64,000 nt of DNA from Lineus longissimus (lineage: Eukaryota > Nemertea > Pilidiophora > Heteronemertea > Lineidae), in NCBI RefSeq assembly GCF_910592395.1, contig NC_088308.1:18245501-18309500 (forward strand). The letters run 5' to 3'. The notes under the pieces were generated by a model that made no database searches, was not told the DNA's origin, and saw only the letters and a list, made by a program, of their open reading frames with translations. Each line of letters opens with the position of its first letter. Within the stretch, counting starts at the first letter, position 1. Positions 5,198 to 64,000 of the stretch are shown one piece after another. The position numbers were made by a program, and so were the translations under genes.

Positions 5198-8100
5198 CTG
5201 GAAGAAATAAGGGTTTCATGTACATGACTGGAGAGTGAGGGTGTAACGTTTTTCCGTTCTGAAAGACTGTTTTACACGTTTTTCCAGCCTCGTCGCAAGT
5301 CATTCTATCCGTAAGAATCCGTGATTTAAGTCTTTCTATCGTCAACAATCGGACCACACTAAAACCTATTGTGGTATGCTAACACGGCGACACTCTAATG
5401 CATTTGACGCTGTGTTTAATGAATAATTCAAGGAATTGGGATATCTGTACCTGACACGTCAATTGGAAAGCTCCGAGACTACTCTCGGCGCTGACGTCCA
5501 CCAGGCCGAGACAGCTGAAGATCCAAGGGACGCCCAGCAGGGTCAGCATGGCTACCGCTCCGACAAGTTGTACCTTCAGCGCGCGCCTATTGTCTGGAAG
5601 GATAAGCTCATAAATATCTAAGCGAGATTACCACGTGAGACTGCTATCTCCCTTTAAACATGTTTGGTCAAGATGTGATAAAGGTGACATAATTTGTAAA
5701 TACTTTTTTCATTTTGCAACCTCTAACCTGTGTGAAAATGTCTATAGTCTTTTCCTGGTATCAGAGGAAGATCAACAAAACTAGTCGATCTGGTATGTAT
5801 TTCGTGACAAGATTCAAGCCACGCCCAGCCATAGGAGCGATACACAGAATTCGATTTCTCTTGTAAAAAGCCCCCTTTCGATGATGCACTTTAATGTTGC
5901 TTCTAGCACGTACTTACGCAGTTGGAAATTATTTACAATTCAAAGCACTCCAGCCATCGATTCGTCAGTTTGAAACGACAACTAACTGAATAGACTGCGG
6001 CCTTTGCGCCGGCGATAGAACCACTAAATTTTGCATTTTTGAAACATGATTGGTTGTTCTGGTTTCAGACAAATCTTGGGCTAGTATCATTCAGTGTTTT
6101 CGTCTCTCAATACTCGACATATACCCGACAAAGATAAACATAGCACCAAGGAAAATCCCTTCGGTCATTCCAAGTCAAATAATGTCAATCTCAAATCGCC
6201 CTTTGTCTGTTTTATATTGTTTAAGGTCGATGCGCTCTCAACTCCTAAAAAAACATACAGGACATTCCGTCGAAGTACTAAAGTCTCTCTTTTATCTATG
6301 ATACGATCGCACTCGCATAATTATTCTCACGGACAAACATGAGGCTGATGAGTGCGTGAGAATAGAAGCGCCACTGTGGAACAACATTTTTGTTTGTGGA
6401 CACTCGTTCAAAGATCGATATGACACGAAAGGAAAATGGTTCAGGACACTCAGCCAACTGAATAAATAATGATCAACATCACCACATTTTATGTTTTTGA
6501 AACTCGAGTGCTAGATCATGCGTACTTTAAGTATTATATCATTGCGTCGTCACATTTATCAATATTCAGCAACTGTTACGCTCGGCAATTCTGATAAACC
6601 TGGCTCCAGTCACAGTCCAAGTCTAATCATGTCTAGATGGATGTTTTCTCAAATCGCCCTTCAACTGTTCTTGTTGTTAAGGCTCGATGCACTCAAAGTT
6701 ACCTACGATTTTGAACTGAAATACGATGTTCAATTAACAGAAGGACAGACAGGCAAAACTGTCAAAAGTCGAAGTTTGGTAGATTGTATTGGATTGTGTA
6801 TATCAGACAGCAGGTGTTCAGCATTTAGTTTCCTTCGCGACAAAAATTGCCTGCTGTGCGTTGAAAGGATAAAGACGATTACTAAAAACTCTCAAGGAGC
6901 CATATCGGGCAAAAGACCTTCTGTCACCCGGTTTTGTGCACCAACTACGGGCGGGAAGCTACTGCTGGCCGACATCAACAATGATACAATGACTGATTTG
7001 ATTTGCCATAATGCAACAGCAGGCACGCTACAGTTTGCGGAGTCGCGGGGAAGCTATTTCGAAATCACTGGAGAACTGCCGTATACTTTTTGTCCGACCT
7101 CTCACAAAGCCGCTCTGAGAATTGGAGACTTCGATAAGAACGGCATCAGTGACGTCATGTGCGATGATGATACACTACAAAGGAAATATTTCACTTTCCT
7201 TGACCGTGTTGATTCATCGGTGGATTCGAAACAGAGGGTCAAAGAAACTTGGACATGGTCAGTTAAGTGGTGTTCTCTCGTAACAGGTGAGTTTAACGAC
7301 GTTGGTACGTTTTGGAGTAATGGGAAACAGCAGATCCTTTGTCAAAATGATATTTCAGGCGAGGTATGGATAACCAACATCGACAAAGCCCCCGTACTAG
7401 TGCCAGGTTCTTCCTGGCGATACTGCCTCAAAAACGATCCAGGTCATCAAGGTCTATTATTTATCGTCCTCTTGAATAACGACACGTTCAGTGACTTGGT
7501 ATGCCACTGGACGAAAACAACCTCTCCTGATCCTTTTACCAAGATCGTTGTCCGTCCTGGCTCCGCTCGGGGGACAATTGGAGACGCAGTCGTTGTACTG
7601 GACACCACTAAGACCTGTCCCTTTGGTTCCTTTCTCAGCACAGGACATTTCAATGACGATGGGATTCGAGATTTCGTTTGTGTCACTGGAAAACGTTCGG
7701 ACAGAAAGCTCAAGGTCTTTCTGGCCAAGGATGGGAAACTTAAGTTCACCGGGCTTGACTATGAGCGCGATTTTGTTTTGTGTGCTGAAGACTCCACCAT
7801 TTACTTTGGGGAGTTCTCTACACCGGGAAAGAGTGATTTATTATGTCATCAGAAAGATGGTTCCCTGGACATCCAGAATGTGGTTAACAATCATTGATAA
7901 CGCGTGCTACATTAGATGATTGATGAATTACTTTGAATGCACAATGCGAAAATAAGAATATTGTCAAGTTTTCTTAAGCGCTTCAAGACAGACCTCGGCA
8001 TTACCAGCTATTGCGGGCCTAGCCAATCAAGCCAATTAGTGCACCTGCTTAATTGGTCCTGGCAAGCCTAATGGAAAATGCATAGGAAATATCAATAAAG

Positions 8101-20490: not shown

Positions 20491-23400
20491 TGTATAGGAT
20501 GAGCCAACAGGGCAATTACGGTGAGCGCGATGGAACAGCAAGACCCAGACCAAATCATACCTGGTTCCAACGCCTGCTCCAAAGCCTAGCTAGATTGGCA
20601 AGAGAGATGAAGCAATCACAACTGGACCTGCACCTCCACCGTCTTGCCGACAGGGTCAGTTGGACGAGCAAGTCACAACCAGACCGAATCGGGCTTGGCT
20701 GCTAATCAGCCTCGACAACACGATTACTTGGATGAGTCGGCCACAACAAAACCGAATCCGCAATGAGACATACACAGCAAGTCCGGTCGGGTCCTGTCAA
20801 CGCCGTGAAAAAGATTAGACAGACACAACCAGACTGTATCGGCCTGGTAGCTGCACCCTGTCGTCGATACGATATGAGACAGACACAACCAGACTGTATC
20901 GGCCTGTTAGCTCCACCCTGTCGTCGATACGATATGAGACAGACACAACCAGACTATATCGGCCTGTTAGCTCCACGCTGTCGTCGATACGGTATGAGAT
21001 ATGAGACATTCACAAATTCGAACATGGGAGCTTAACCGTGTTGTCAACCCGGATAGAGAGACGAGATAATGAAAACCAAAGCGAAACACCTGATCCAGTG
21101 AAAGTGATGAGAAGGCAACTACCAGCCTTAGTAGGGCCATCAGGCTGCACCACCGCGCCAGAGTGAGAGAGATGAGATAGAGACCAAACTGAAACGGCTA
21201 AGACAGATCCATCATGTCGACACAGTGCGAGTGAAGAAAAAGCCACAACCAGCCTGAGTAGGGCTAGCAGGCTGCACCACCGTCTTGTCGCTTCCAAGAG
21301 AAACATGATACATTCACAACCAGATCGAATTGAGCCTTTCAGCTCCACCATGTCGCCGACACAGCGAGAGAGAAGACAAGGTCTCCACCAGTCCAATAAT
21401 GGCCTACTTGCTGGTTCATCGTCTTGTCATCATTATTAGAGACACGGAATAGTCACAACCAGACCGAACTGGCTAAGGCAGATCCAGTGAGAGTGATTAG
21501 AAGGCTACAACCAGCCTGAGTAGGACCAGCAGGCTGCACCACCGTCTTGTTTTGTTCCAAGAGAAACACGAGATATTCACAACCACATCTAATCAGGCCT
21601 CTCATGCAGCTCCACCGTATCGCCGATGTAGTGAGAGTGAAGACAGTGTCTCAACCAGTTCGAGCAGGGCCTACTGGCAGGCCCCATCATCTTGACATCG
21701 TGATGAGAGAGACGGGATACTCACAACCAGTCTAAATCGGGCCTGGCTGCCCTACCGTCATGCCAACCCGATGGGAGAGATGACAGATGACAGTCACCGC
21801 CAGTCCGAATCGGGCCTGGCGCTTCAAAGACATCGTGTCACCAACACGGTGGAAGAAACGGGAAAGCCGCAACAAGCTCGAATAATATATGGAACACAAC
21901 CGTATTTTCATCCCTATAGGTGACAATAGGCAGACACAACACACACCAACGACATCAGGGCTTTCATCTCGACCGTGTCCCGCCAACACGGTGAGAGAGA
22001 TGAGACAGTCACACCAAGCCCGATTATGTCCTACTGCCTGCCCCACCGTCCTGTCTATACGGTGAGGGAGATGAGACAGTCACCCCGAGCACGATTGTTA
22101 CCTACTGGCTGCCCCGCCGTCTTGCCAAAACGGTGAGAGAGATGAGACAGTCACAACCAGCCCGAATATGTCCTACTGCCTGCCCCACCATTCCCGTCAT
22201 CATGTCGAGAGAGATGAGACAATCACCCTGTGCACGATGATGTCCTAATGTCTGCCCCGCCGTCCCGTCATCACTGTGAGTAAGATGAGTCACCCAGAGC
22301 CCGATTCTGACCTGCTGGCTGCCCCGCCGTCATGCCAAAGCGTTGAAAGAGATGAGACAGTCACACCCAGCCCGATCATGTCCTACAGCCTGTTCTGTCG
22401 TCCTGTCAACATGATTACATATAAGAGACAGTCGCCCGAGCCTGATATGATCTCCTATTGCCAGCCTTGTCGTCTTCCCACATTATGTCCTACTGTATGC
22501 CCCGCCCTTCCCGTCATCACGTTGAGAGATATGGGACAGCCATCTCGAGCCCGATTATGTCCTAATGTCTGCCCCGCCCTCCCTTCATCATGTAAAAGAT
22601 ATGAGACAGTCACACCAAACCTGATCATGTCCTACTGCCAGCCCTGTCGTCCTGTCTTGTGTCCTGTTGGCTGCCACGCCGTCTTGCCAAAACAGATGAA
22701 ACAGTCACAGAAACAGTCACATCGAGCCCGATTGAGTCCTACTGCCTGCCCTGTCGTCTTGTAAACACGGTAAAATATATGAGACAGTCACCCCGATTCT
22801 GGTGATGTCCTATTGCCAGCCCAGTCGTCTTTCTATCCTCATAATGTCCTACACTCTGCCCCGCTGTGCCGTAATCGCGTTGAGAGAGATAAAACTCTCA
22901 CTCCGAGCCCGATAATGTCCTACTGTCTGCCCCGATATTCACGTCATCACGTTGAAAGACATGAGACAGCCATCCTGAGCTCGATTATGTCCTACTGACT
23001 GCCCCGCCGTCCCGTCATTCTGTTGAGAGAGATGAGACAATCACCATGTGCCCGATGATGTCCTAATGTTTGCCCCGCCGTCTTGCCAAGAGTTGAGAGA
23101 GATGAGACAATCACAACCAGCCCGATTATGTCCTACTGCCTGCCCTGTCGTCTTGTAAACACGGCAACATATATGAGACAGTCACCCCGAGCCTGGTGAT
23201 GTCCTATTGCAAGCCCTGTCGTCTTTCCTCATAATGTCCTACTGGCTGCCCCGCCGTCCTGTCTGCACGGTGAGAGAGATGAGACAGTCACCCCAAGTCA
23301 AATGATGTCCTAATGTGTGCTCCGCCGTAGTTTGAACACGTTGAGAGAGACGAGACAGTCACACCAAACCTGATCATGTCCTACTGCCGGCCCGCCATCC

Positions 23401-25850
23401 TGTCTACACGGTGGGAGAGATGAGCCATCAGCCCGAGCCCGATTGTGTCCTGTTGGCTCACCCGCCGTCTTGCTAAAACGGTGAGAGAGATGAGACGGTC
23501 AAAACTAGCCCGATTATGTCCTACTGTCTTCCCTGCCGTCCCGTCATCACGTTGAGCGAGATGAACCAGCCACCCCGAGCCTGATGATGTCCTGCTGCCT
23601 GCCCTGTCGTCTTGTAAACACGGTAGAATACATGAGACATTCGCACCCAACCCAATTATGTCCTACTGCCTGCACCACCGTCCTGTCAACACGATGACGG
23701 AGATGGGACAGTCACCCCGAGCCCGATTATTCCCTGATGGCTGCCCCTCCGATGTTTGAACACGTTGAGAGAGACAAGACAGCCACACCAAACCTGATCA
23801 TATCCTACTGCCTTCCCCACCGTCCTGTCTACACGGTTAGGGAGATGAGACAGTCACCCTGAGCCCGATTGTGACCTGTCGGCTGCCTCCCGTCTTGCCA
23901 AAGCAGAGGGAGAAGGATGAGACAGTCACAACCAACCCGATTATGCCCTACTGCCTGTCCCGTCATCAAGCCAACGCTTTGAAGGAGATAAGACGTCGAC
24001 CCGAGCCAGATGATGTCCTAATGTCTGCCCCGTCGTTGTTTGAATACGTTGACAGAGACGAGACAGTCACACCAAACCTGATCATGTCCTACTGCCTGCC
24101 CGTAGTCCTGTCTACACGGTGAGAGAGATGCGACAGTCACAACCAGTCCGATTATGTCTTTCTGTCTGCCCCGCCGTCCCGGCATCACGTTCAGCGAGAT
24201 GAAACAGCCACCCAGGCTATATGAAGTCCCACTGCCTGCCCTGTCGTCTTGTTAATAGGGTAAAAGCTTTGTGACAGTGAACCCGAACCCGATTGTGTCC
24301 TGCTGGCTGCCCCAACATCCTGTCTGCACGGTGAGAGTGATGCGACAGTCACAACCAGCTTGATTATGTCCTACTGCCTGTCCCGTCACCTAGCCAACAC
24401 GGTGAAAGAGATCAGACGTCACCCCAAGCCAAAAGATGTCCTAATGTCTGTCCCGCCGATGTTTGAACCCGTTGAGAGAGACGAGAGTCACACCAAACAT
24501 GATTATGTCCAACTGCCTGCCCAGCCATCCTTTCTACACGGTGAGGGAGATGAGACAGTCACCCTCAGCCGATTGTGACCTGTCGGCTGCCTCGCCGTCT
24601 TGCCAAAGCAGAAAGAGAGAGATGAGACAGTCACACCAAACCTGATCATGTCCTACTGCCGGCCCGCCATCCTGTCTACACGGTGAGGGAGGAGAGACAG
24701 TCACCCCGAGCCCGATTGTGTCCTGCTGGCTCATCCGCCGTCTTGCCAAAATGGTGAGAGAGATGAGACAGCCATCCCGAGCCCGATTATGTCCTACTGT
24801 CTGCCCTGCCGTCGTTCGAACACATTGAGAGAGATGAGACAGTCACACCAACCCTTACCATGTCCTACTGCCTGCCCTGCCATCTGCTATCAGGGTGAGA
24901 AAGATGAGATAGTCACAACCAGCCCGATTATGTCCTACTGTCTGCCCCGCCGTCCCGTCATCACGTTCAGCGAGATGGAACAGCCACCCGAGCTTTATGA
25001 AGTCCCACTGCCTGCCATGTCGTCTTGTTAATAGGGTAAAAGCTATGTGACAGTCACCCGGAACCCGATTGTGTCCTGCTGGCTGCCCCGCCGTCCTGTC
25101 TGCACGGTGAGAGAGATGAGACAGTCACAACCAGTCTGATTATGTCCTACTAACTTTCCCGTCATTTAGCCAACACGGTGAAAGAGATCAGATGTCACCC
25201 GAAGTCAAATGATGTCCAAATGTCTGCTCCGCCGTAGTTTGAACACGTTGAGAGAGACGAGACAGTCACACCAAACCTGATCATGTCCTACTGCCGGCCC
25301 GCCATCCTGTCTACACGGTAAGGGAGATGAGACAGTCACCCCGAGCCCGATTATGTCCTACTGGCTCACCCGTCGTCTTGCCAAAACGGTGAGAGAGATG
25401 AGACGGTCACAACCTGCCCAATTATGTCCTACTGTCTGCCCTGCCGTTCCGTCATCACGTTGAGCGAGATGAGCCAGCCACCCCGAGCCTGATGATGTCC
25501 TATTGCCAGACCTATCGTCTTGCCACATGATGTCCTACTTTCTACCGCGCCCTTCCCGTCATCACGTTGAGAGAGATGACACAGTCACCCCGAGCCCGAT
25601 AGTGTCTTACGGTCTACCCTCCATTCCCGTCATCACGTTGAGAGAGATAAGACAGCCATCCCAAGCCCGATTATAACCTAATGTCTGCCCCGCCGTCCCG
25701 TCATCATGTAAAAGATATGAGACGGTCACACCCAACCAGATTATGTCCGGCTGCCTGCCCTGTCGTCTTGTAAACACGGTAAAATACATGAGACAGTCAC
25801 CCAGAGCATGATGATGTCCTATTGCCAGCCCTGTCGCCTATCCTCATAAT
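20490..25850 (+). repeat. Satellite, left monomeric and diverged zone
   Basis: Monomers of about 60-72 bp follow the consensus GAGAGAGATGAGACAGTCAC, then CAGCCCGATTATGTCCTACTG, then CCTGCCCCGCCGTC and a variable CTTG...ACACGGT junction. From 20490 to about 22000 units are strongly diverged. From about 22000 they are regular. No higher-order period is evident by eye. Frames on both strands are by-products: the 71-bp period is not a multiple of three, so no peptide repeats in register. Confidence 0.85.
20815..21000 (+). repeat. Three 60-bp tandem units at the left edge of the satellite
   Basis: AGACACAACCAGACTGTATC starts at intervals of exactly 60 bp in three consecutive units, with only a few differences (GGTAGCTGC/TTAGCTCC, CTATATC). 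These are shorter than the about 71-bp monomers further right but share the ATGAGACA..CACAACCAG core. Confidence 0.85.
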
Positions 25851-28800
25851 GTCCTACTGTCAGCCCCGCTATTCACGTCATCATGTTGAGAGAGATGAGA
25901 CAGCCACCCTGTGCCCGATGATGTCCTAATGTCTGCCCCGCCGTCTTGCCAAAACGGTGAGAGAGATGAGACTGTCACTCCGAGCCTGATGATGTCCCGC
26001 TGCCTGCCCTGTCGTCTTGTAAACACGGTAAAATACATGAGACAGTCACCCAGAGCATGATGATGTCCTATTGCCTGCCCTGTCGTCTTGTAAACACGGT
26101 AAAAGATATGAGACATTCACACCCAACCCAATTATGTCCTACTGCCTGCACCACCGTCCTGTCTACACGGTGACGGAGATGAGACAGTCACCTCCAGCCC
26201 GATTGTTGCCTGATGGCTGCCCCGCCGTTGTTTGAACACGTTGAGAGAGACGAGACAGTCACACCAAACCTGGTCATGTCCTACTGCCTTCCCCACCATC
26301 CCGTCTACACGGGAGATGAGACAGTCACACCGAGCCCGATTGTGACCTGCTGCCTGTGCCGTCATCTAGCAAACGCGGTGAAAGAGATAAGACGTCACCC
26401 CGAGCCAGATTATGTGCTAATGTCTGCCCCGCCATTGTTTGAACACGTTGAGAGAAACGAGACAGTCACACCAAACCTGATCGTGTCCTACTGTCTTCTC
26501 CACCGTCCTGTCTACACGGTGAGGGAGATGAGACAGTCATCCCGAGCCCGATTGTGACCTGCTGGCTACACCGCAGCCTTACCAAAGCGATGAGAGAGAT
26601 GCGACAGTCACACCCAGCTCGATTTTGTGCTACTGCCAATCCTGTCGTCTTGAACACAGTAACATATATGAGACAGTCACCCCGAGCCTGGTCATGTCCT
26701 ATGCCAACCCTGTCGTCTTTCCTCATAATGTCTTACTGTCTGACCCGCTGTCCCGTTATCACGTTGAGAGAGATGATACTGTCAACCCGAGCCCGATGAT
26801 GTCCTACTGCCTGCACCACCGTCCTGTCTACACGGTGAGGGAGATGAGACAGTCACAACCAGCCCGATTATGTCCTACTGCCTGCTCCGCCATTCCCGTC
26901 ATCACGTTGAGAGAGATGAGACAATCACCCTGTACCCGATGATGTCCTAATGTCTGCCCCGCCGTTTTGCCAAAACGGTGAGAGAGATGAGACAATCACC
27001 TTGTGCCCGATGATGTCCTAATGTCTGCCCCGCCGTCTTGCCAAAACGGTGAGAGAGATGAGACTGTCACCCCGAGCTTGGTGATGTCCTATTGCCAGCC
27101 CTGTCGCCTATCCTCATAATGTCCTACTGTCAGCCCCGCTATTCACGTCATCATGTTGAGAGAGATGAGACAGCCACCCTGTGCCCGATGATGTCCTAAT
27201 GTCTGCCCCGCCGTCTTGCCAAAACGGTGAGAGAGATGAGACTGTCACCCCGAGCCTGATGATGTCCCGCTGCCTGCCCTGTCGTCTTGTAAACACGGTA
27301 AAATACATGAGACAGTCACCCAGAGCATGATGATGTCCTATTGCCTGCCCTGTCGTCTTGTAAACACGGTAAACGATACGAGACATTCACACCCAACCCA
27401 ATTATGTCCTACTGCCTGCACCACCGTCCTGTCTACACGGTGACGGAGATGAGACAGTCACCTCCAGCCCGATTGTTGCCTGATGGCTGCCCCGCCGTTG
27501 TTTGAACACGTTGAGAGAGACGAGACAGTCACACCAAACCTGGTCATGTCCTACTGCCTTCCCCACCATCATGTCTACACGGGAGATGAGACAGTCACAC
27601 CGAACCCGATTGTGACCTGCTGCCTGTGCCGTCATCTAGCAAACGCGGTGAAAGAGATAAGACGTCACCCCGAGCCAGATTATGTGCTAATGTCTGCCCC
27701 GCCATTGTTTGAACACGTTGAGAGAAACGAGACAGTCACACCAAACCTGATCGTGTCCTACTGTCTTCTCCACCGTCCTGTCTACACGGTGAGGGAGATG
27801 AGACAGTCACCCCGAGCCCGATTGTGACCTGCTGGCTACACCGCAGCCTTATCAAAGCAATGAGAGAGATGAGACAGTCACACCCAGCTCGATTATGTGC
27901 TACTGCCTATCCTGTCGTCTTGTAAACACAGTAACATATATGAGACAGTCACCCCGAGCCTGGTCATGTCCTATGCCAACCCTGTCGTCTTTCCTCATAA
28001 TGTCTTACTGTCTGACCCGCTGTCCCGTTATCACGTTGAGAGAGATGAAACTGTCAACCCGAGCCCGATGATGTCCTACTGCCTGCACCACCGTCCTGTC
28101 TACACGGTGAGGGAGATGAGACAGTCACAACCAGCCCGATTATGTCCTACTGCCTGCCCCGCCATTCCCGTCATCATGTTGAGAGAGATGAGACAATCAC
28201 CCTGCGCCCGATGATGTCCTAATGTCTGCCCCGGAGAGATGAGACAGTCACAACCAGCCAGACTATGTCCTACTGCCTGCCCCGCCATATCTGTCATCAC
28301 GTTGAGAGAGATGAGACAGCAATACCGAGCCGGATTATGTCCTACTGACTGCCCCGCCGTCCCGTCATCATGTTGAGAGAGATGAAACAATCACCCTGTG
28401 CCCGATGATATCCTAATGTCTGCCCCGCCGTCTTGCCAAAACGGTGAGAGAGATGAGACTGTCACCCCGAGCTTGGTGATGTCCTATTGCCAGCCCTGTC
28501 GCCTATCCTCATAATGTCCTACTGTCAGACCCGCTATTCACGTCATCATGTTGAGAGAGATGAGACAGCCACCCTGTTCCCGATAATGTCCTAATGTCTG
28601 CCCCGCCGTCTTGCCAAAACGGTGAGAGAGATGAGACTGTCACCCCGAGCCTGATGATGTCCCGCTGCCTGCCCTGTCGTCTTGTAAACACGGTAAAATA
28701 CATGAGACAGTCACCCAGAGCATGATGATGTCCTATTGCCTGCCCTGTCGTCTTGTAAACACGGTAAACGATATGAGACATTCACACCCAACCCAATTAT

Positions 28801-31800
28801 GTCCTACTGCCTGCACCACCGTCCTGTCTACACGGTGACGGAGATGAGACAGTCACCTCCAGCCCGATTGTTGCCTGATGGCTGCCCCGCCGTTGTTTTA
28901 ACACGTTGAGAGAGACGAGACAGTCACACCAAACCTGGTCATGTCCTACTGCCTTCCCCACCATCCTGTCTACACGGGAGATGAGACAGTCACACCGAGC
29001 CCGATTGTGACCTGCTGCCTGTGCCGTCATCTAGCAAACGCGGTGAAAGAGATAAGACGTCACCCCGAGCCAGATTATGTGCTAATGTCTGCCCCGCCAT
29101 TGTTTGAACACGTTGAGAGAAACGAGACAGTCACACCAAACCTGATCGTGTCCTACTGTCTTCTCCACCGTCCTGTCTACACGGTGAGGGAGATGAGACA
29201 GTCACCCCGAGCCCGATTGTGACCTGCTGGCTACACCGCAGCCTTATCAAAGCAATGAGAGAGATGAGAGAGTCACACCCAGCTCGATTATGTGCTACTG
29301 CCTATCCTGTCGTCTTGTAAACACAGTAACATATATGAGACAGTCACCCCGAGCCTGGTCATGTCCTATGCCAACCCTGTCGTCTTTCCTCATAATGTCT
29401 TACTGTCTGACCCGCTGTCCCGTCATCACGTTGAGAGAGATGAAACTGTCAACCCGAGCCCTATGATGTCCTACTGCCTGCACCACCGTCCTGTCTACAC
29501 GGTGAGGGAGATTAGACAGTCACAACCAGCCCGATTATGTCCTACTGCCTGCTCCGCCATTCCCGTCATCACGTTGAGAGAGATGAGACAATCACCCTGT
29601 ACCCGATGATGTCCTAATGTCTGCCCCGCCGTTTTGCCAAAACGGTGAGAGAGATGAGACAATCACCCTGTGCCCGGTGATGTCCTAATGTCTGCCCCGG
29701 AGAGATGAGACAGTCACAACCAGCCAGACTATGTCCTACTGCCTGCCCCGCCATATCTGTCATCACGTTGAGAGAGATGAGACAGCAATACCGAGCCGGA
29801 TTATGTCCTACTGACTGCCCCGCCGTCCCGTCATCATGTTGAGAGAGATGAAACAATCACCCTGTGCCCGATGATGTCCTAATGTCTGCCCCGCCGTCTT
29901 GCCAAAACGGTGAGAGAGATGAGACTGTCACCCCGAGCTTGGTGATGTCCTATTGACAGCCCTGTCGCCTATCCTCATAATGTCCTACTGTCAGCCCCGC
30001 TATTCACGTCATCATGTTGAGAGAGATGAGACAGCCACCCTGTGCCCGATGATGTCCTAATGTCTGCCCCGCCGTCTTGCCAAAACGGTGAGAGAGATGA
30101 GACTGTCACCCCGAGCCTGATGATGTCCCGCTGCCTGCCCTGTCGTCTTGTAAACACGGTAAAATACATGAGACAGTCACCCAGAGCATGATGATGTCCT
30201 ATTGCCTGCCCTGTCGTCTTGTAAACACGGTAAACGATATGAGACATTCACACCCAACCCAATTATGTCCTACTGCCTGCACCACCGTCCTGTCTACACG
30301 GTGACGGAGATGAGACAGTCACCTCCAGCCCGATTGTTGCCTGATGGCTGCCCCGCCGTTGTTTTAACACGTTGAGAGAGACGAGACAGTCACACCAAAC
30401 CTGGTCATGTCCTACTGCCTTCCCCACCATCCTGTCTACACGGGAGATGAGACAGTCACACCGAGCCCGATTGTGACCTGCTGCCTGTGCCGTCATCTAG
30501 CAAACGCGGTGAAAGAGATAAGACGTCACCCCGAGCCAGATTATGTGCTAATGTCTGCCCCGCCATTGTTTGAACACGTTGAGAGAAACGAGACAGTCAC
30601 ACCAAACCTGATCGTGTCCTACTGTCCTCTCCACCGTCCTGTCTACACGGTGAGGGAGATGAGACAGTCACCCCGAGCCCGATTGTGACCTGCTGGCTAC
30701 ACCGCAGCCTTACCAAAGCGATGAGAGAGATGCGACAGTCACACCCAGCTCGATTATGTGCTACTGCCTATCCTGTCGTCTTGTAAACACAGTAACATAT
30801 ATGAGACAGTCACCTTGAGCCTGGTCATGTCCTATGCCAACCCTGTCGTCTTTCCTCATAATGTCTTACTGTTTGACCCGCTGTCCCGTTATCACGTTGA
30901 GAGAGATGAAACTGTCAACCCGAGTCCGATGATGTCCTACTGCCTGCACCACCGTCCTGTCTACGCGGTGAGGGAGATGAGACAGTCACAACCAGCCCGA
31001 TTATGTCCTACTGCCTGCTCCGCCATTCCCGTCATCACGTTGAGAGAGATGAGATAATCACCCTGTACCCGATGATGTCCTAATGTCTGCCCCGCCGTTT
31101 TGCCAAAACGGTGAGAGAGATGAGACAATCACCCTGTGCCCGGTGATGTCCTAATGTCTGCCCCGGAGAGATGAGACAGTCACAACCAGCCAGACTATGT
31201 CCTACTGCCTGCCCCGCCATATCTGTCATCACGTTGAGAGAGATGAGACAGCAATACCGAGCCGGATTATGTCCTACTGACTGCCCCGCCGTCCCGTCAT
31301 CATGTTGAGAGAGATGAAACAATCACCCTGTGCCCGATGATGTCCTAATGTCTGCCCCGCCGTCTTGCCAAAACGGTGAGCGAGATGAGACTGTCACCCC
31401 GAGCTTGGTGATGTCCTATTGACAGCCCTGTCGCCTATCCTCATAATGTCCTACTGTCAGCCCCGCTATTCACGTCATCATGTTGAGAGAGATGAGACAG
31501 CCACCCTGTGCCCGATGATGTCCTAATGTCTGCCCCGCCGTCTTGCCAAAACGGTGAGAGAGATGAGACTGTCACCCCGAGCCTGATGATGTCCCGCTGC
31601 CTGCCCTGTCGTCTTGTAAACACGGTAAAATACATGAGACAGTCACCCAGAGCATGATGATGTCCTATTGCCTGCCCTGTCGTCTTGTAAACACGGTAAA
31701 CGATATGAGACATTCACACCCAACCCAATTATGTCCTACTGCCTGCACCACCGTCCTGTCTACACGGTGACGGAGATGAGACAGTCACCTCCAGCCCGAT

Positions 31801-34050
31801 TGTTGCCTGATGGCTGCCCCGCCGTTGTTTTAACACGTTGAGAGAGACGAGACAGTCACACCAAACCTGGTCATGTCCTACTGCCTTCCCCACCATCCTG
31901 TCTACACGGGAGATGAGACAGTCACACCGAGCCCGATTGTGACCTGCTGCCTGTGCCGTCATCTAGCAAACGCGGTGAAAGAGATAAGACGTCACCCCGA
32001 GCCAGATTATGTGCTAATGTCTGCCCCGCCATTGTTTGAACACGTTGAGAGAAACGAGACAGTCACACCAAACCTGATCGTGTCCTACTGTCCTCTCCAC
32101 CGTCCTGTCTACACGGTGAGGGAGATGAGACAGTCACCCCGAGCCCGATTGTGACCTGCTGGCTACACCGCAGCCTTACCAAAGCGATGAGAGAGATGCG
32201 ACAGTCACACCCAGCTCGATTATGTGCTACTGCCTATCCTGTCGTCTTGTAAACACAGTAACATATATGAGACAGTCACCTTGAGCCTGGTCATGTCCTA
32301 TGCCAACCCTGTCGTCTTTCCTCATAATGTCTTACTGTCTGACCCGCTGTCCCGTCATCACGTTGAGAGAGATGAAACTGTCAACCCGAGTCCGATGATG
32401 TCCTACTGCCTGCACCACCGTCCTGTCTACGCGGTGAGGGAGATGAGACAGTCACAACCAGCCCGATTATGTCCTACTGCCTGCTCCGCCATTCCCGTCA
32501 TCACGTTGAGAGAGATGAGATAATCACCCTGTACCCGATGATGTCCTAATGTCTGCCCCGCCGTTTTGCCAAAACGGTGAGAGAGATGAGACAATCACCC
32601 TGTGCCCGGTGATGTCCTAATGTCTGCCCCGGAGAGATGAGACTGTCACAACCAGCCAGACTATGTCCTACTGCCTGCCCCGCCATATCTGTCATCACGT
32701 TGAGAGAGATGAGACAGCAATACCGAGCCGGATTATGTCCTACTGACTGCCCCGCCGTCCCGTCATCATGTTGAGAGAGATGAAACAATCACCCTGTGCC
32801 CGATGATGTCCTAATGTCTGCCCCGCCGTCTTGCCAAAACGGTGAGAGAGATGAGACTGTCACCCCGAGCTTGGTGATGTCCTATTGACAGCCCTGTCGC
32901 CTATCCTCATAATGTCCTACTGTCAGCCCCGCTATTCACGTCATCATGTTGAGAGAGATGAGACAGCCACCCTGTGCCCGATGATGTCCTAATGTCTGCC
33001 CCGCCGTCTTGCCAAAACGGTGAGAGAGATGAGACTGTCACCCCGAGCCTGATGATGTCCCGCTGCCTGCCCTGTCGTCTTGTAAACACGGTAAAATACA
33101 TGAGACAGTCACCCAGAGCTTGATGATGTCCTATTGCCTGCCCTGTCGTCTTGTAAACACGGTAAAAGATATGAGACATTCACACCCAACCCAATTATGT
33201 CCTACTGCCTGCACCACCGTCCTGTCTACACGGTGACGGAGATGAGACAGTCACCTCCAGCCCGATTGTTGCCTGATGGCTGCCCCGCCGTTGTTTGAAC
33301 ACGTTGAGAGAGACGAGACAGTCACACCAAACCTGATCATGTCCTACTGCCTTCCCCACCATCCTGTCTACACGGGAGATGAGACAGTCACACCGAGCCC
33401 GATTGTGACCTGCTGCCTGTGCCGTCATCTAGCAAACGCGGTGAAAGAGATAAGACGTCACCCCGAGCCAGATTATGTGCTTATGTCTGCCCCGCTATGT
33501 TTGAACACGTTGAGAGAAACGAGACAGTCACACCAAACCTGATCGTGTCCTACTGTCTTCTCCACCGTCCTGTCTACACGGTGAGGGAGATGAGACAGTC
33601 ACCCCGAGCCCGATTGTGACCTGCTGGCTACACCGCAGCCTTACCAAAGCGATGAGAGAGATGCGACAGTCACACCCAGCTCGATTATGTGCTACTGCCA
33701 ATCCTGTCGTCTTGAACACAGTAACATATATGAGACAGTCACCCCGAGCCTGGTCATGTCCTATGCCAACCCTGTCGTCTTTCCTCATAATGTCTTACTG
33801 TTTGACCCGCTGTCCCGTTATCACGTTGAGAGAGATGAAACTGTCAACCCGAGCCCTATGATGTCCTACTGCCTGCACCACCGTCCTGTCTACACGGTGA
33901 GGGAGATGAGACAGTCACAACCAGCCCGATTATGTCCTACTGTCTGCTCCGCCATTCCCGTCATCACGTTGAGAGAGATGAGCCAATCACCTTGTACCCG
34001 ATGATGTCCTAATGTCTGCCCCGCCGTTTTGCCAAAACGGTGAGAGAGAT
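25850..34050 (+). repeat. Satellite higher-order repeat array, six copies, 1466-bp period
   Basis: A marker variant monomer (CTACTGTCAG, then CCCGCTATTCACG) recurs at 25858, 27128, 28523, 29989, 31455 and 32921. The spacings are 1270, 1395, 1466, 1466 and 1466 bp. The 1395-bp copy is shorter by 71 bp, one monomer length. Each full copy holds about 20 monomers, and copies 4 and 5 are nearly identical. The sixth copy is partial, ending near 34050. This is the structure left by repeated unequal exchange of multi-monomer blocks. It is not protein-coding. Confidence 0.9.
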
Positions 34051-35345
34051 GAGACAGTCACAACCAGCCAGATTATATCCTACTGCCTGCCCCGCCATTC
34101 CCGTCATCACCCTGTGTCCGATTGTGTCCTGCTGGCTGCCCGACGTCTTGCCAACACGCCCAGGGAGATAGGACAGTCACACCCAACCCGATTATATCCC
34201 ACGGCCTGCCCCGTTCTGACTACTTAAAGAGGGAGATGAGACAGTCAACCCAAGCCTGATAGTGTCCTGCTGGCTGCCCCGCCGTCTTGCCAAAACGGTG
34301 AGAGAGATGAGACAGTCACAACCTGCCCTATTATAACCTACTGCCTGCCCCTCCGTCCAGCCCACACGTTGAGAGAGATGAAACAGCCATCCTGAGCCCG
34401 ATTATGTCCTACTGACTGCCCGCCGTCCCATCATCATGTTGAGAGAGATGTGGCAATCATCCCGATCACGATTGTGACCTGCTGGCTGCCCCGCCGTCTT
34501 GCCAAAACGGTGAGAGAGATGAAACAGTCACAACCAGCCCAATAATGTCCTACTCTTTACCCCGCCATTCCCGTCATCACGTTGAGAAAGATGAGACAGC
34601 CATCCCGAGCCCGGTTATGTCCTACTGACCGCCCCGCCGTCCCGTAATCACGGTGAGAGAGATGAGACAATCACCCTGTGCCCAATTATGTCCTGCTGGC
34701 TGTACGAAGTCTTGCCAGCACGCCAAGGGAGATAAGACAGTCACACCAAACCCGATTATATCCTACTGCCTGCCCCACCGTCCTGTCTACAAGGTGAGGG
34801 AGATGAGACAGTCACACCCAGCCCGATGATGTCCTACTCTGTCTGCCCCGCCGTCGTTTGAACACGTTAAGAAAGCCGAGACAGTCTCACCGACCCTGGT
34901 CATGTTCTACTGCCTTCCCCGCCGTCTTGTCTACACGATGAGAGAGATGAGACAGTCACACACAGCCTGATTATGTCTTTCAGCCTGTCCCTCCGTCTAG
35001 CCAACACGGTGAGAGGGATAAGATAGTCACCATGAGTCTGATGATTTTGTACTGCCTGCCCTGTCGTCTTGTAAACACGGTAAAAGATAGGAGACGGTTA
35101 CATCCAGCCCGATTATATCTTACTGGCTGTCCCACCCTCTAGCCAACACAGTGGGAGACATAAGACAGGCACACCCAGCCCGATTATGTCCTACTGTCTG
35201 CCATGCCGTCGTTTGAACACATTGAGAGAGATAAGGCAGTCACACCAACCCTCACCATGTCCTACTGCCTGCCCTGCCATCTGCTATCACGGTGAGAAAG
35301 ATGAGACAGTCACACCCAGCCCGATTATGTCCTATTCCCTGCCCT
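34050..35345 (+). repeat. Satellite, right monomeric zone
   Basis: The same about 71-bp monomers in plus orientation, diverged from one another and without the 1466-bp marker variant. The last plus-oriented monomer (CAGCCCGATTATGTCCTATT) is at about 35318-35337. Confidence 0.85.
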
Positions 35346-35359
35346 GCTGTTCAACACCA

Positions 35360-54000: not shown

Positions 54001-57000
54001 CAAGGTATTGTTAACTCTACCAGAAGTTTATCACTGGGTCGTCTGCTAGCTTCAAGGAACATGTGGAAGGGGAATGGTCCATGCCAGGATTAGTCAAAAA
54101 TTGGTGTCTCTTTATCGGATCATTCCAGCTTCTGAGCAGACGTCATGCACTTTAACAACAACATCCCCAAATCAATGTCATTGAAAGCATTGTTCTTTTG
54201 GCCCGATAGTTCAAAAGTTATCAACTCCATCAAAAGGATACTTTTGAAAACTTCAAGGTATTGTTAGCTTTGGCAGAAGTTACACCATTGGGTCACCTGC
54301 TTGCTTCCTGGGATCGTCTGCTGGCCTCCCACTGAGCAGACGATGGGTCCCCAAACATCAAGGGAGGAGTTCACAAGGAATACAAGTTATTTGAGCAAGT
54401 CTATCAGCATCTCTGATATCTCTCTCTCCGTATACCCCACAGGTGAACGGAGGAAACTCGAGCGTAAATGACAACGTTTGCAAACTTGGAAAAAAACTCC
54501 CAGTTCCTTGGGAATCGCATCCGAATTCTGTTGGTAATTCTCGGTGAACACTTCACTTCTAACTAGAAAACTGATCAAAGCTTTGTAGTCAGGAGATCAA
54601 ACCCCGTGCCAAAGTAAGACTCAAGGCTTCTGCTCCTTCTAGATGAGTGGACGGCTTTGAGCGAGCACTTCACACGGCACATACCTTGGGAGAAGCGCCA
54701 TGTGACGCCGAATTTGAACCCATCATATAACTATCAAATATAAATATCATATTATCACGGTACACACATCAGTGACATCTAATCTTCGGGATAAGATGTT
54801 AAACAAGGAAGGATTACGTGGAAACTATTGCAAGTGCTTGCACCTGAAGGGGGGTCCCACTCTCAGCGGGATAAGCACAAACAAAGCCATCAAGAAGAGT
54901 GAAGTCTTCCTTTTCTACTTCACAGTAACTTAACCCCACCTGAGCAGAAAACAGACACATGGCTGTTGTTATCAATGACGCAATTTACTCAAAAATTGCA
55001 ACATGAAAAGGAAATTTCATTGACTGAAAGTCAAAAGAAATGTTGGCCCTTTTATAGTCTTGTCGACAAAATGCCAGCAATACCCGTGGATTGCCTTACC
55101 TAGAGTTCAGGCCCAAAATCAGAATGATTCTGGCAACCATCTTATATGTTGGCAGTGCCATGGTCTTCTTCACTCTAAGATCTCCTTATTTTGCAACATT
55201 TAATTTGGTCCGACCCAAACCAATATCAAAATGTCTTGAAGCACTTTTCGACAAAAGCTGACAATTTCATCCGGGTTACCCACAAGTCTTCTTCCTCACA
55301 ACAGGAGATTTGATCATTGCCAATTTGGCTCAACACTGCTTTAAGGAATGGCGGAAATTCCGTCTAATTTTATTGTCTATTTCCAAAGAAATTAGAATGC
55401 ACGAGGACCATTTCCACATACGTCACTTTTCATTTCCTGCTGCTTTCAACACCGTCGCAATGACACTAAGTTTCAACCCTTGTCATCTCTTTCATCGAAG
55501 CCTACCTCAAGGCATGAGCGATTTTTTGTCCACATCACAAAGGTCGTGCTGTGTTTTAATTCCTCTTAATTAACTCTAGTCGCAGGGAGATGAAAAAGGT
55601 ATTGAGGAGAATGAGACCTAATAGGGCACTGAGCTGAGTGGAATGAGAGACCAATAGGCCAGCGATCTGATGAGAATTAACCCTCAGTGACCATGGACAA
55701 TCTGCATGGTCACTTGTCTGACAGAAACAGACTCCCTAAAATGACCTGATATAATCTTTAAAACCAATACCTCCTAATATCACCCAAATACAAACTGAAT
55801 CCAAAAAAGTTGAGTACACCAAGTCACCACTAGGTGCCTCTACTGTCTTTCCATACTGGCCCAAACAACTTCTTGTCGTAGGACCAAAATCAATGACGGC
55901 TATTTCTACCAATATTTTAGAAAGAAATGAACCTGGCTTTGAAAAAGAATTGGATTTCTAGAAGCAAACATGGATTTGAACAACATAGTTCTAGGATGTC
56001 TAGTGATTAGTAAGAAGTAACCTCTAGACTATGGCTACGGATGTAAAATAGAGTGCACCAAAGATTCTAGACTCCCAAAAATGTTCTGATGTGGGGGGGG
56101 GGCTTAAGTAATGAGTATCGCCAGGGGACTATTTAAATTCAAGAGCAATGCCTTTTACCACGGCAGTCATTTTGGAGAACGTCTGAAACGCCATCTATGA
56201 TGCGAACCAAGCACCTTTTTTCTTCATTTTCTAACCAAGCAGTCTGCATTCTCCAACAAAGCGTTTCTTCAATCTTGTCTAGAATCTTGGGCAAATTCCA
56301 CACACCAAAGTTGAAAACACAAAACGTGACACAGGGTGGTACTTACCGGCAAGGTTTGCACCACTGGCCTTGGTGTTCTACCCCGAACCGCGCTCGACAC
56401 TTTTTGGGATTGGTACACTCTGAAAAAGCAATGCATACATTTGAAATTTTTTCCAAAAGAGTTGAGGAAACAACTGTAAACCCCATTCTCTTTGCTAAAC
56501 TAGGAATATTGGATAACACAATATTCTGGATATTACCACCTTATTCGGGATATGATATGTACGGTATCAAAATCTTTGAAATATCACATTATTTAGGACA
56601 TCAAAATAATTGTGATATTACGATATTTAGGATATCTAAATATTTGGGATATCATATCATTTAGGATGTCTAAATATTTGGAATATCTTGATACTAATTT
56701 AGAACATCACAATAATTGTGATATCATAATATTTAGGATATCTAAATATTTGGGATATCATATCATTTAGGATATCTAAATATTTGGGATATCATGATAC
56801 TAGGATATTACAAAATTTGGGCCATCATATTTCAGGATACTTCATTCCAAATCAGTTGGTGAATTGATCAGAGCTTGAAAATCACTCTCAATATAATTTC
56901 AAGCACTATTTATAATTTGTAGATAGCTGAAGTTAGGTTGCAAATACAATGGGGTTTACATATAACTGGAAGAAAAATATCAATTAGCACACTGATGATC

Positions 57001-60000
57001 TAAAATATCTACCAAGTTAATATCTACCAATGTATATGTAATGATGAAATGAACTGATTAAAGAATTAATTTGAAACCTCTGCCACGAATTCAAAATAGG
57101 CGAGTTTTAAGATGAGGTGAGTGCATGGGGTATAAGGGTCTCAAAAATTTGAAAACAGTTAATTTTACTAAGTAATTCATTCGTCCGAGATAAATATCCG
57201 GGATTAAAATTGTTGTTTCATTCGAACATTTTCAATGGCGCTGCATGAATCACATATTCCTCATCGTCGAAGTGACCTCGTTGATTTATGACTAACTTGG
57301 TCCCACCCACTTTCTTGGTTCACTCCCCTCTCTCGCTCAACGGCTGCTGGGCAAAAATCAATATCTTCTGACAGATCAAGAAATACCAAGCAGAGACCAG
57401 ATGATGCAGTCAGTTATGACTAAGTCACGGCTGTTTCAGGATGATTCAAATTTTGGGTACCGAGGAGCGGCGGGCAGGTTAGGTTTTGCATAATCAGGGT
57501 ATTACTCAATTGATTCAGACAGAAAACTGACAAATTAGAAATTCAATATAAAAATAGCCTTGCATGCACACGAATTTCACCAAAGTCACCATTTTAAAAC
57601 TCATAGCAATTTTAATAGGAGAATTCAAACAGTTGGGTAGCAGTAATCATCCACTGGGGAAAGCTGTGCATCAGCAAGACACAAGTCTCCTCATTTCTGA
57701 CCAAAAAGTGCCAAATTCATCCAACCTCAATATTTTGGTTTTCAATATTTTGATTTCAAGTGTAATATCGACACTACCTGACCAAATTGTTTAATTTCCT
57801 CAAACTCACACCCATTTTAGAGATTAAAATGTGTATTCTAAGAAAGGTCAAGCAGGATCGTTGCAGCATGAGTTTAATATTCTGTCAACATGGTCAATTA
57901 TGTCGGAAGGGTACAGTTCTGGTTAAATCTTATCAAATTCCCCATGCATTCAAAACTGGCATCATTCAACTGTTTGTACATTTCAAGCACCAAAGCAATG
58001 ACTCTTAAAGCAAGCTTCACTATATTTAAGGCAAAGCCAACACTTAATGCCATCTCTTAACTCTTGGAAAGAAAAAGCCACAATTCCAACAAGTTTAAGA
58101 TTTTCAACGTAAAACATTTGTTCCCTTCTAAAATTTTTGGGTGTGATATTGTCAGCTAATCTGCCATCATATTTCGAAATTTCGTTTCCGAACAAAAGCT
58201 GCTGTCATCTGAATAATTTTCTGATCATAAGATCCAACGTGAATGACAAGGCTTTTTTCCACATTCATTAACCTCAAGGCCAGAACATGTGATCATTTAA
58301 ATCTTCTAGAAAGTAGTAATTAATTACTTCTGGAACATTCAAGAAAACAACCACAAAATACACACACGACAGTAAGTACAATATTCTAATTCCGTAAAAT
58401 ATGCATATCATATCAAGTTCATAAAAGAAAGCAATAAATGGCGGTTATATGACACAAATGAAGACAACATCCAGTGAATCGGTTCCAGTCTTTGCCAAGA
58501 GCTCAGAGGTCAAAGGTGAAAGGTTACAGGCCATAAGCAGCCACTCTACCTGTCCCTTTCAAATCAAGATCGTCCGTCGGCCGCGTTTTGCGCTTTTTCC
58601 GTTTGCTGTGTGTGGCGTAGTTATCACGAGCCGTCCACGTAGGATACAACTGCATGTGAAGCTCTTTTTCTTTTTTGGCCATTTCATAGTATTTTGCTTG
58701 TTCAGACCTGTCTAATTCATGCCACTGAAACAAAATCATAAAAGCTCTGCATTACTCAGTCGAACTCGGAACGCCAGACTGTACCTGATGATGCAGGATC
58801 GGCAGACTCTGATGACGCTCGCTTTCGCTTTTTCCGCTTGCTGTGTTTGGAATAGTTGTCTCTAGCACTCCAACCGGGGTAAAGCTGCATGTGAAGTTCT
58901 TTTTCTTTTCGGGCCATATCGTAATATTTTGCCTGTTCTGATCTGTCTAACGTATGCCACTGAAATGAACCAGCGTGAGGCTTAGTTTGTTAGGTGTGGG
59001 AGCTAAGAGGGTTAGTGCGTGATCAGACACCCAACACGGTTAGTGCGATCCAGGAGAGCCAGCGCAGCAAACACAGCAGAACGGAGCAAGGAAAGGACCA
59101 GGCAAACACGACTAGTCCTCTACCAATCCCACAGCAGCCGGCATAGTTCAGGCCTTTTCGAGTCAGTCAGATAATGCCGTTCATTGTTCCTCTTTCAAAA
59201 GACTGAAACCAAACGGAGTCCCACAAGCGATGGGCGGCCAACAGCGGATGTCGACCGCCAATCGGATGTGGGCGGGAAATCTATTCTAACACTGAAAAGG
59301 AAACAAATAACGGCATCATATGACTTCGAAAAACTCCAAAAGATCCAAACAGTACCTTGCGCCATGGCATCAGTTGAGATTGGTAACTTCTTCCCTTTTT
59401 TCCGTTTGGTGTGTTTGGCGTAGCTGTCCCGGGCGCTCCAACCCGGGTATAGCTGCATGTGGAGTTCTTTTTCCTTTCTCGCCATTTCGTAATATTTAGC
59501 CTGTTGCGATCTGTCTAGTGCATGCCACTGAAAGGGAGAGTTAAGACTATAGACCTGTTCATCAATCTGGTCACTCCTCCAACGATGACAAAACTAAAGG
59601 TACACGAAGTGAAATCAAATTGAGGGAAGGAAAAATAAGAAGATTCCATTTGAAGAAGGGAATGTTTGACCACAGAAATCCAAACCGAAATCGTTTTTGG
59701 AATGGGGAAGTAACATTGATCAGTGTCAACCCAATAAATTGGCTGATGAGGTGTTTGGACACCGACCTCATCACCAAGGAAATCTCATCAAATATAAAAC
59801 TGCAGTTCATACTCAAAATGTTGCAGAAGATTTTAAGTTCAATTTTGGATAATATGATCATTCACGTTTGACCACCTTTGTTTTCCAAATTCATTTGAAT
59901 GACCAATGGAAATGAAGCAATAACCAAAAAAATTTGCTTATTTTCAAAGCTGGAGAGAAGAGACATTTCTACCAACTGGGTTGGAAAAATTCTAAGCCCG

Positions 60001-62796: not shown

Positions 62797-64000
62797 CTGA
62801 AATGTGCAGCGCTGAAATTAGAATTTTGTCACGCTTGTTGAGACAACACTTTCTCCCCTCGTGCCTATCCGTTCAGAAGAAACTCTTCACCGTTCTCATT
62901 ACAAGTACATGTATGTCAGCCTGCGACTTTTTGTCAACTTTCGACAAAATGCAGTATCTTTGCACTCGTACATGCCAAGGTGAAAGAAAATATCTTTCCA
63001 TTTGCGTTTTGTGTTAAAATCACATCACAACTTAGAGGATCATCAAGAAAACTTAACGGTCAATAAAAATCTAAAGCTTCAACAATTCTCGACAGTTGCA
63101 GAAATGGCGATGACAGGAATTTTTATTTCTTTTTTGGTCCGAAAGCCTATTCCGTAGCCGAAGCTGGGATGAATTGAAAAGCAGTAAAAACTGAGCACAA
63201 ATAGAAGGCAGGAAATCTTCCCAAATCTTACAGGAATTGACGCAATTTTTCACGAACCAACAGGATATCCCTGGAAATCCTCGGTAAGACTGACCATTCA
63301 TAATGAGAGCGGTAAAAACGTCTCCAGAACGGATGGGAACAATGCCAGTAAAGTGCCTCACCTGAACTGGAACAAAATCATTCGCATTTCGAGTATAGAA
63401 TTGTATGCGTGAGTTGGTTCAAGTTGGGGTGGATTGGCACGGTACAAAGAAACGATAACCATTGAATAATGCCCAAACTTGGGTGAGATTTTTCAACGAG
63501 TTCAGGAAGGCATTTTAGGGGAAAAAGACAGAAGTACAAGGTCACAACATGCATTATCATTACTCGCGAGATAGACAGCCATTTAACACAGATTTCGTTA
63601 AGAAAGTGAGAAAGGTTTTACAGATATTTTTAAAAGATTCTATAGTATTTCCACATAAGTCAGTTTGACAATGTAAGAGAGAAAGTAGAAGCAAGAATTT
63701 GAGATTAAGCCGTGCTTTCTTGACTTTCTAAAAGCGCGGCATAAAAACAATGTTTTTTTCAAATTACTTTGTGATTTTTGTTTAAATCGATATTTCTTTT
63801 TCAATTTCAAAAAGGTCAAAGAAATTAGTTCCAAAGTTGTTTTCCCAGACGTTCAGTCATTGATACCTTCAACATACAACACCATGTGTTTTTCCTCTTA
63901 CTTTAAAAAACCTTCTTTGAATCTGACTTAGTGGAAAGATAGACCAGAAACGAAAGACAGATTCAGAAATAGATAAGAAATATTTTGAAAAAAAATCCAA
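62797..64000 (-). other. TCF/LEF intron upstream of the HMG first-half exon
   Basis: No exon matching the TCF regulatory or beta-catenin-binding regions was recognised before the window edge. Minus-strand frames at 63071-63560 have no TCF features. Confidence 0.5.

Follow-up and report, generated by a model that had tools for sequence, protein, structure and literature searches.

Does a TCF/LEF gene with three consecutive exons for the same half of its HMG box make three DNA-binding versions of one protein, or is one of the exons at work and the others spare? The question is raised by a stretch of 64,000 nucleotides from the nemertean Lineus longissimus (contig NC_088308.1; called the window below), in which the 3' part of this animal's TCF/LEF (TCF7L2-like) gene lies.

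Exon anatomy of the Lineus gene

The best match of the gene, P0001, is transcription factor 7-like 2 isoform X3 of Lineus longissimus. The features of the gene, given in window positions, are as follows.

62796-62610, minus strand: exon A, first half of the HMG box, ending in ...INQILGRK; phase 0 out; located by tblastn with P0001 residues 318-381
59527-59356, minus strand: V1, second half of the HMG box, basic tail and linker, 172 nt; complete HMG_box match when joined to exon A
58959-58785, minus strand: V2, second half of the HMG box, 175 nt; the version found in RefSeq isoform X3
58725-58784, minus strand: intron between V2 and V3, 60 nt
58724-58550, minus strand: V3, second half of the HMG box, 175 nt; complete HMG_box match when joined to exon A
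56419-56347, minus strand: exon C, first part of the C-clamp
48094-47746, minus strand: exon D, RKKKCIRF end of the C-clamp, acidic C terminus and stop codon; located by tblastn with P0001 residues 464-579 (100%)

The introns from exon A to exon D, passing through V1, V2, V3 and C, are 3082, 396, 60, 2130 and 8252 nt long. V1-V3 each span from WH.LDRS through the basic tail and have the same acceptor, TTTCAG/TGG (the slash marks the exon edge), and their GT donors are AAG/GTACTG for V1, CAG/GTACAG for V2 and CAG/GTAGAG for V3. All three are phase 0 in and phase 1 out and read in frame into exon C; the C-clamp, a feature of most invertebrate TCFs, is present, split over exons C and D. These boundaries on the minus strand bear out the earlier note on this DNA, which had described three tandem second-half exons with an acceptor and a donor each and with phases 0 and 1, and had placed the donor of exon A at 62610 and the acceptor of exon C at 56419.

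By tblastn on the window, residues 318-579 of P0001 map to exons A, V2, C and D. The A-V2-C-D splice form is identical to the last 260 residues of P0001 (260/260 aa), so the tblastn mismatches at A, V2 and C are overhangs past the exon edges. Residues 1-317 have no tblastn match in the window; P0001 carries the beta-catenin-binding domain (PF08347, precomputed), and that part of the gene is outside the window. Two possible acceptors, 15 nt apart, lie 5' of exon A (62797-62812; TTTCAG CGCTGCACATTTCAG/G). Of these, the downstream acceptor is used in the RefSeq form, and the alternative one would also preserve the frame. In the intron directly before the C-clamp exon, an AT-rich tandem repeat with 17- and 34-bp units (56565-56829) might affect the splicing of that exon.

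Direct repeats between 57500 and 60500 fall into seven families. One of these is 144 nt long and has three copies, the outer two being 79% and 83% identical to the middle one, while the remaining six are two-copy matches of only 12-16 nt; the triplicate is therefore not a chance similarity. The HMG_box Pfam match is complete with each version (78.7, 78.7 and 79.3 bits for a cut-off of 25.4), and the best solved relative of the V1 form is LEF-1 (2lef, 149 bits). No further convincing second-half copy was found in the window by tblastn of V1-V3 (the other matches have E of at least 0.5), and tblastn with two first-half HMG sequences found no second first-half exon in the windowed part of the gene. 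The possibility that the triplicate is an assembly artefact or a set of unmerged haplotypes is practically negligible, as the copies differ at 28-34 of 141 nt, the introns between them have no long repeat in common, and the V2 form is found exactly inside the species' RefSeq model.

Reading frame, constraint and predicted use of the versions

When all eight combinations of V1-V3 were spliced in silico, only the three single inclusions reached the normal stop in exon D. With two or three versions included (four combinations), translation ends in V2 or V3, at 150, 240, 240 and 325 nt ahead of the last junction; when V1-V3 are skipped altogether, it ends in exon C, 31 nt upstream of that junction. 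Since only single inclusion keeps the frame, a full TCF needs exactly one version. The presence of several HMG halves in one protein was also considered and is ruled out, because each multiple inclusion shifts the frame.

Judged by their sequence, V1-V3 probably go back to tandem duplication, are mutually exclusive and tune the contact between the HMG box and DNA. Each mRNA would carry a single version, joined to exon A on one side and to the C-clamp exon on the other. Messages that contain more than one version would be expected to be destroyed by nonsense-mediated decay, given stops 150-325 nt before the last junction, and the 60-nt intron would probably be a further obstacle to the joining of V2 to V3. 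The three resulting proteins would have a common N terminus, HMG first half and C-clamp. Known clusters of mutually exclusive exons, such as those of tropomyosin and Dscam, likewise consist of tandem homologous exons, with the frame or a short intron favouring one per mRNA, and competing RNA pairing operates in some of them, not in every one. The Lineus exons differ from the tropomyosin and Dscam clusters in that they vary a Wnt effector in its DNA-binding domain, and in that no pairing element was detected: docking/selector RNA pairing gave no signal in this one genome, a comparison of low power in which 14/20 and 18/20 shuffles were as good or better. The earlier proposal of alternative splicing is supported as regards the anatomy of mutually exclusive exons; V1 and V3 are candidates for inclusion in mRNA, and V2 is the version found in the RefSeq model.

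V2 is the only version in the listed RefSeq model, isoform X3. Five of six V1- or V3-specific strings are absent from all 251 returned proteins, and the sixth, WHELDR, occurs in 4 of the 251, which differ elsewhere. No V3 form was found in a V3-only search (18 proteins of 21 candidates), nor was a V1 or V3 form among the best 120 of 1217 in a short-fragment search. The protein database is clustered at 90% identity and P0001 represents nine members, so V1 or V3 isoforms would sit unseen in its cluster. It could be argued from the RefSeq model, in which no version but V2 is listed, that V2 is the working exon and that V1 and V3, seldom used, have no separate role. We consider this unlikely, since the frames and splice sites of V1 and V3 are intact, the chance of 57 random codons without a stop at this base composition is 0.027 per copy, and the differences among V1-V3 are mostly synonymous.

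The last point comes from a comparison of 47 aligned codons (141 nt) between the copies inside one genome, rather than of each version between species. For V1-V2, V1-V3 and V2-V3, respectively, 28, 34 and 33 of 141 nt and 8, 10 and 8 of 47 residues differ. In the same order, pS is 0.75, 0.87 and 0.76, pN is 0.074, 0.101 and 0.118, and pN/pS is 0.10, 0.12 and 0.16 (Fisher p 1.8e-12, 3.1e-14 and 4.5e-10). The proportions pN and pS were used because NG86 yielded a dS value, 3.8, for only one of the three pairs. Near-saturation of the synonymous sites means that the copies are old and that the pN/pS ratio is only a bound. The suggestion in the earlier note that selection acts on all three versions holds as constraint between the copies (pN/pS 0.10-0.16).

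The same constraint bears on another explanation, in which the extra exons chiefly lower the output of the gene, either with double inclusion or skipping as a regulated off state or with skipping as a route to a TCF without the DNA-binding domain. It is consistent with the position of the stops in 4/4 multiple inclusions (150-325 nt before the last junction) and with the skipped message, which may be stable as its stop is only 31 nt before that junction; moreover, a vertebrate TCF7L2 form with the beta-catenin domain and without the HMG box is described in the available part of PMC9303524. However, amino-acid constraint on all three versions is unexpected for exons that merely carry a stop, and the explanation appears very unlikely. 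The triplicate is real, old and constrained, and its use is most likely mutually exclusive.

Residues that distinguish the versions

Residues are numbered as in LEF-1 2lef, W41 being the first residue of the second half. The residues of V1/V2/V3 are A/T/E at position 43, Q/E/E at 48, E/D/E at 54, R/R/K at 57, G/G/T at 69, S/S/T at 71, S/N/N at 75 and A/S/A at 77. Further changes are found at 78, 80, 85 and 87, and the linkers also differ. The isoforms would thereby be distinguished at position 43, which we take to be the turn between helices 2 and 3, at 69, 71 and 75, presumably located after helix 3, and also within the basic tail and the linker that leads to the C-clamp. Such differences may result in graded DNA affinity, bending or Helper-site geometry, and the isoforms may have overlapping but unequal targets.

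Positions 69, 71 and 75 are invariant in 25 single-copy rows drawn from 37 proteins. Nine proteins of the 64-row tree described below were omitted from these rows (two flatworms, Halotydeus, Allacma, Brassicogethes, Zophobas, Pediculus, Apis and Penaeus), and the invariance at 69 is limited to the 25-row sample because this residue is N in the omitted flatworms and D in Pediculus and Apis, which have only copy b. A wider set of 100 distinct second-half 36-mers, obtained from 277 second halves in the 251 proteins returned and including a few partial or out-of-register sequences, shows G69 in 76, S71 in 88 and N75 in 96. The departures at 69 include D (insect copy b), N (flatworms), and T or S (vertebrate proteins). 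Among the matches listed, vertebrate proteins named TCF7L1 have T69 in P0185, P0229 and P0230 and S69 in P0249; a second T69 sequence is common to eight proteins, and three of the six printed are named teleost TCF7.

The marks of TCF7L1 given in the available part of PMC9303524 are N or S at 43 and S at 64, in a numbering that agrees with 2lef at LEF1 N20. The likeness of V3 to TCF7L1 is partial, since V1-V3 of Lineus all keep M at 64. According to the same source, as far as it is available, the vertebrate TCF/LEF paralogues resemble V1-V3 in being versions of one DNA-binding module, with position 43 diagnostic for TCF7L1 and with a duplicated C-clamp exon in TCF7L2 (exons XII/XII'), but their HMG diversity lies between four genes and alternative splicing takes place elsewhere in the protein (PMC9303524). 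In Lineus, splicing could give three versions of one Wnt effector. If one gene does make three DNA-binding versions, the contrast between many vertebrate TCFs and one invertebrate TCF is too simple, and the three copies offer a natural experiment on which HMG residues can vary while the rest of the protein stays constant.

Other animals and the origin of the copies

A protein search returned 5892 sequences within threshold, of which the best 120 were listed and their second halves counted by motif. Two second halves are present in 26 of the best 120 of 5892 (24 arthropods, Mya arenaria and one JGI sequence), a count that is not a frequency because proteins matching twice rank high. Three second halves were found in none of the 251 returned proteins. 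The arrangement in Lineus is striking and not unique, as insects and a bivalve have what look like similar doubled exons.

The arthropod TCF/pangolin proteins with two second halves (for example P0007 of Gonioctena, P0012 of Danaus and P0014 of Petrolisthes) have the same half duplicated after the GR[RK]/WH boundary as Lineus does, but in two copies instead of three, and known there from proteins, not from exon maps. The arthropod sequence type also differs from that of Lineus, with a WHSLSREEQAKYYEKARQ... and b ...YPDWSSRAN... in insects. Each version occurs alone as well: a in Brassicogethes P0120, b in Pediculus P0155, Apis P0245 and Penaeus P0139. The deposited arthropod models P0007, P0010, P0012, P0061 and others contain both second halves in one protein, probably because gene prediction joined two alternative exons. 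Version a stands alone in P0172, which bears the name pangolin isoform J. Halotydeus P0020 has another arrangement, with a degenerate second copy that follows the C-clamp. The T7L1B-like protein of Mya arenaria (P0004) is, like that of Lineus, a lophotrochozoan TCF with consecutive second halves; it differs in having two copies, the second of which pairs with Dreissena (99/94) and with no Lineus version, in a model marked LOW QUALITY. Tubulanus, the other nemertean among the matches listed, has one version in its model there, P0005 (a cluster of three members).

Alternatives also occur for the first half of the HMG box. In Platynereis dumerilii, either of two alternative exons can encode the beginning of the HMG domain of Pdu-Tcf, as identified by PCR on cDNA and genomic DNA (available part of PMC5996498); there the alternatives are two first halves, in Lineus three second-half versions. 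The Platynereis exons, as well as the two second halves in 26 of the best 120 proteins, contradict the earlier claim that TCF diversity elsewhere does not involve swapping of HMG halves. Two first halves are present in 3 of the best 120 proteins (Ostrea P0002, Elysia P0006 and, in part, Batillaria P0016). First-half alternatives were observed in the molluscs P0002, P0006, P0016 and P0224, and P0018 and P0122 of Owenia differ in the first half. Alternative first halves as published for Platynereis may be old in lophotrochozoans. Alternative HMG second halves are not mentioned in the titles and abstract openings that made up the literature searched, subscription work on fly TCF being outside its scope. 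As far as these searches show, this kind of variation is known and three second-half versions in a nemertean are new.

A tree built from 64 second halves groups V1-V3 with lophotrochozoan, flatworm and cnidarian rows in a starred set (27 of the 64 rows, 98/90) that contains neither arthropod version. V1-V3 as one clade have p-AU 0.544 in the 64-row analysis, and they are grouped in a second tree with support 29/0; all trees were calculated on 47 columns, too few for dating. An origin of the Lineus versions in the same ancient duplication as the arthropod pair, which would be compatible with mutually exclusive use, has in its favour the same exon and the same boundary before WH. When V1, V2 or V3 was forced together with arthropod b, the AU p values were 0.089, 0.106 and 0.068 on the 47 columns, not rejected at 0.05. 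Such an origin is nevertheless quite unlikely, as V1-V3 are outside both arthropod versions in the 64-row tree (98/90 set) and the forced trees are 21-23 log units worse. An origin separate from the arthropod pair is favoured, though not proved.

Position 43 differs between versions in several groups (A/T/E in Lineus, S or G versus A in insects, A/S in Mya), and the same positions, 43 and 69, tend to separate the versions across groups. It is conceivable, and we offer it as a tentative idea, that the second-half HMG exon is a site of recurrent innovation in protostome TCF genes, with separate tandem duplications in the nemertean (three copies), arthropods and bivalves. If so, one gene would do what four paralogues do in vertebrates, and V3, by its observed sequence likeness, would be a splice-made TCF7L1-like, perhaps repressor-leaning, DNA-binding domain.

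Two further features of the window were observed. About 14.5 kb of tandem repeats, mostly of a 71-bp unit and its longer multiples, occupy 20817-35347, where the G+C content is 0.52-0.53 versus 0.36-0.42 in the rest of the window. On the plus strand, an open frame of 460 residues (6515-7894) matches PAN_1 (22.2 bits, just over the cut-off) and FG-GAP_3 (37.5 bits) and is probably a separate gene.
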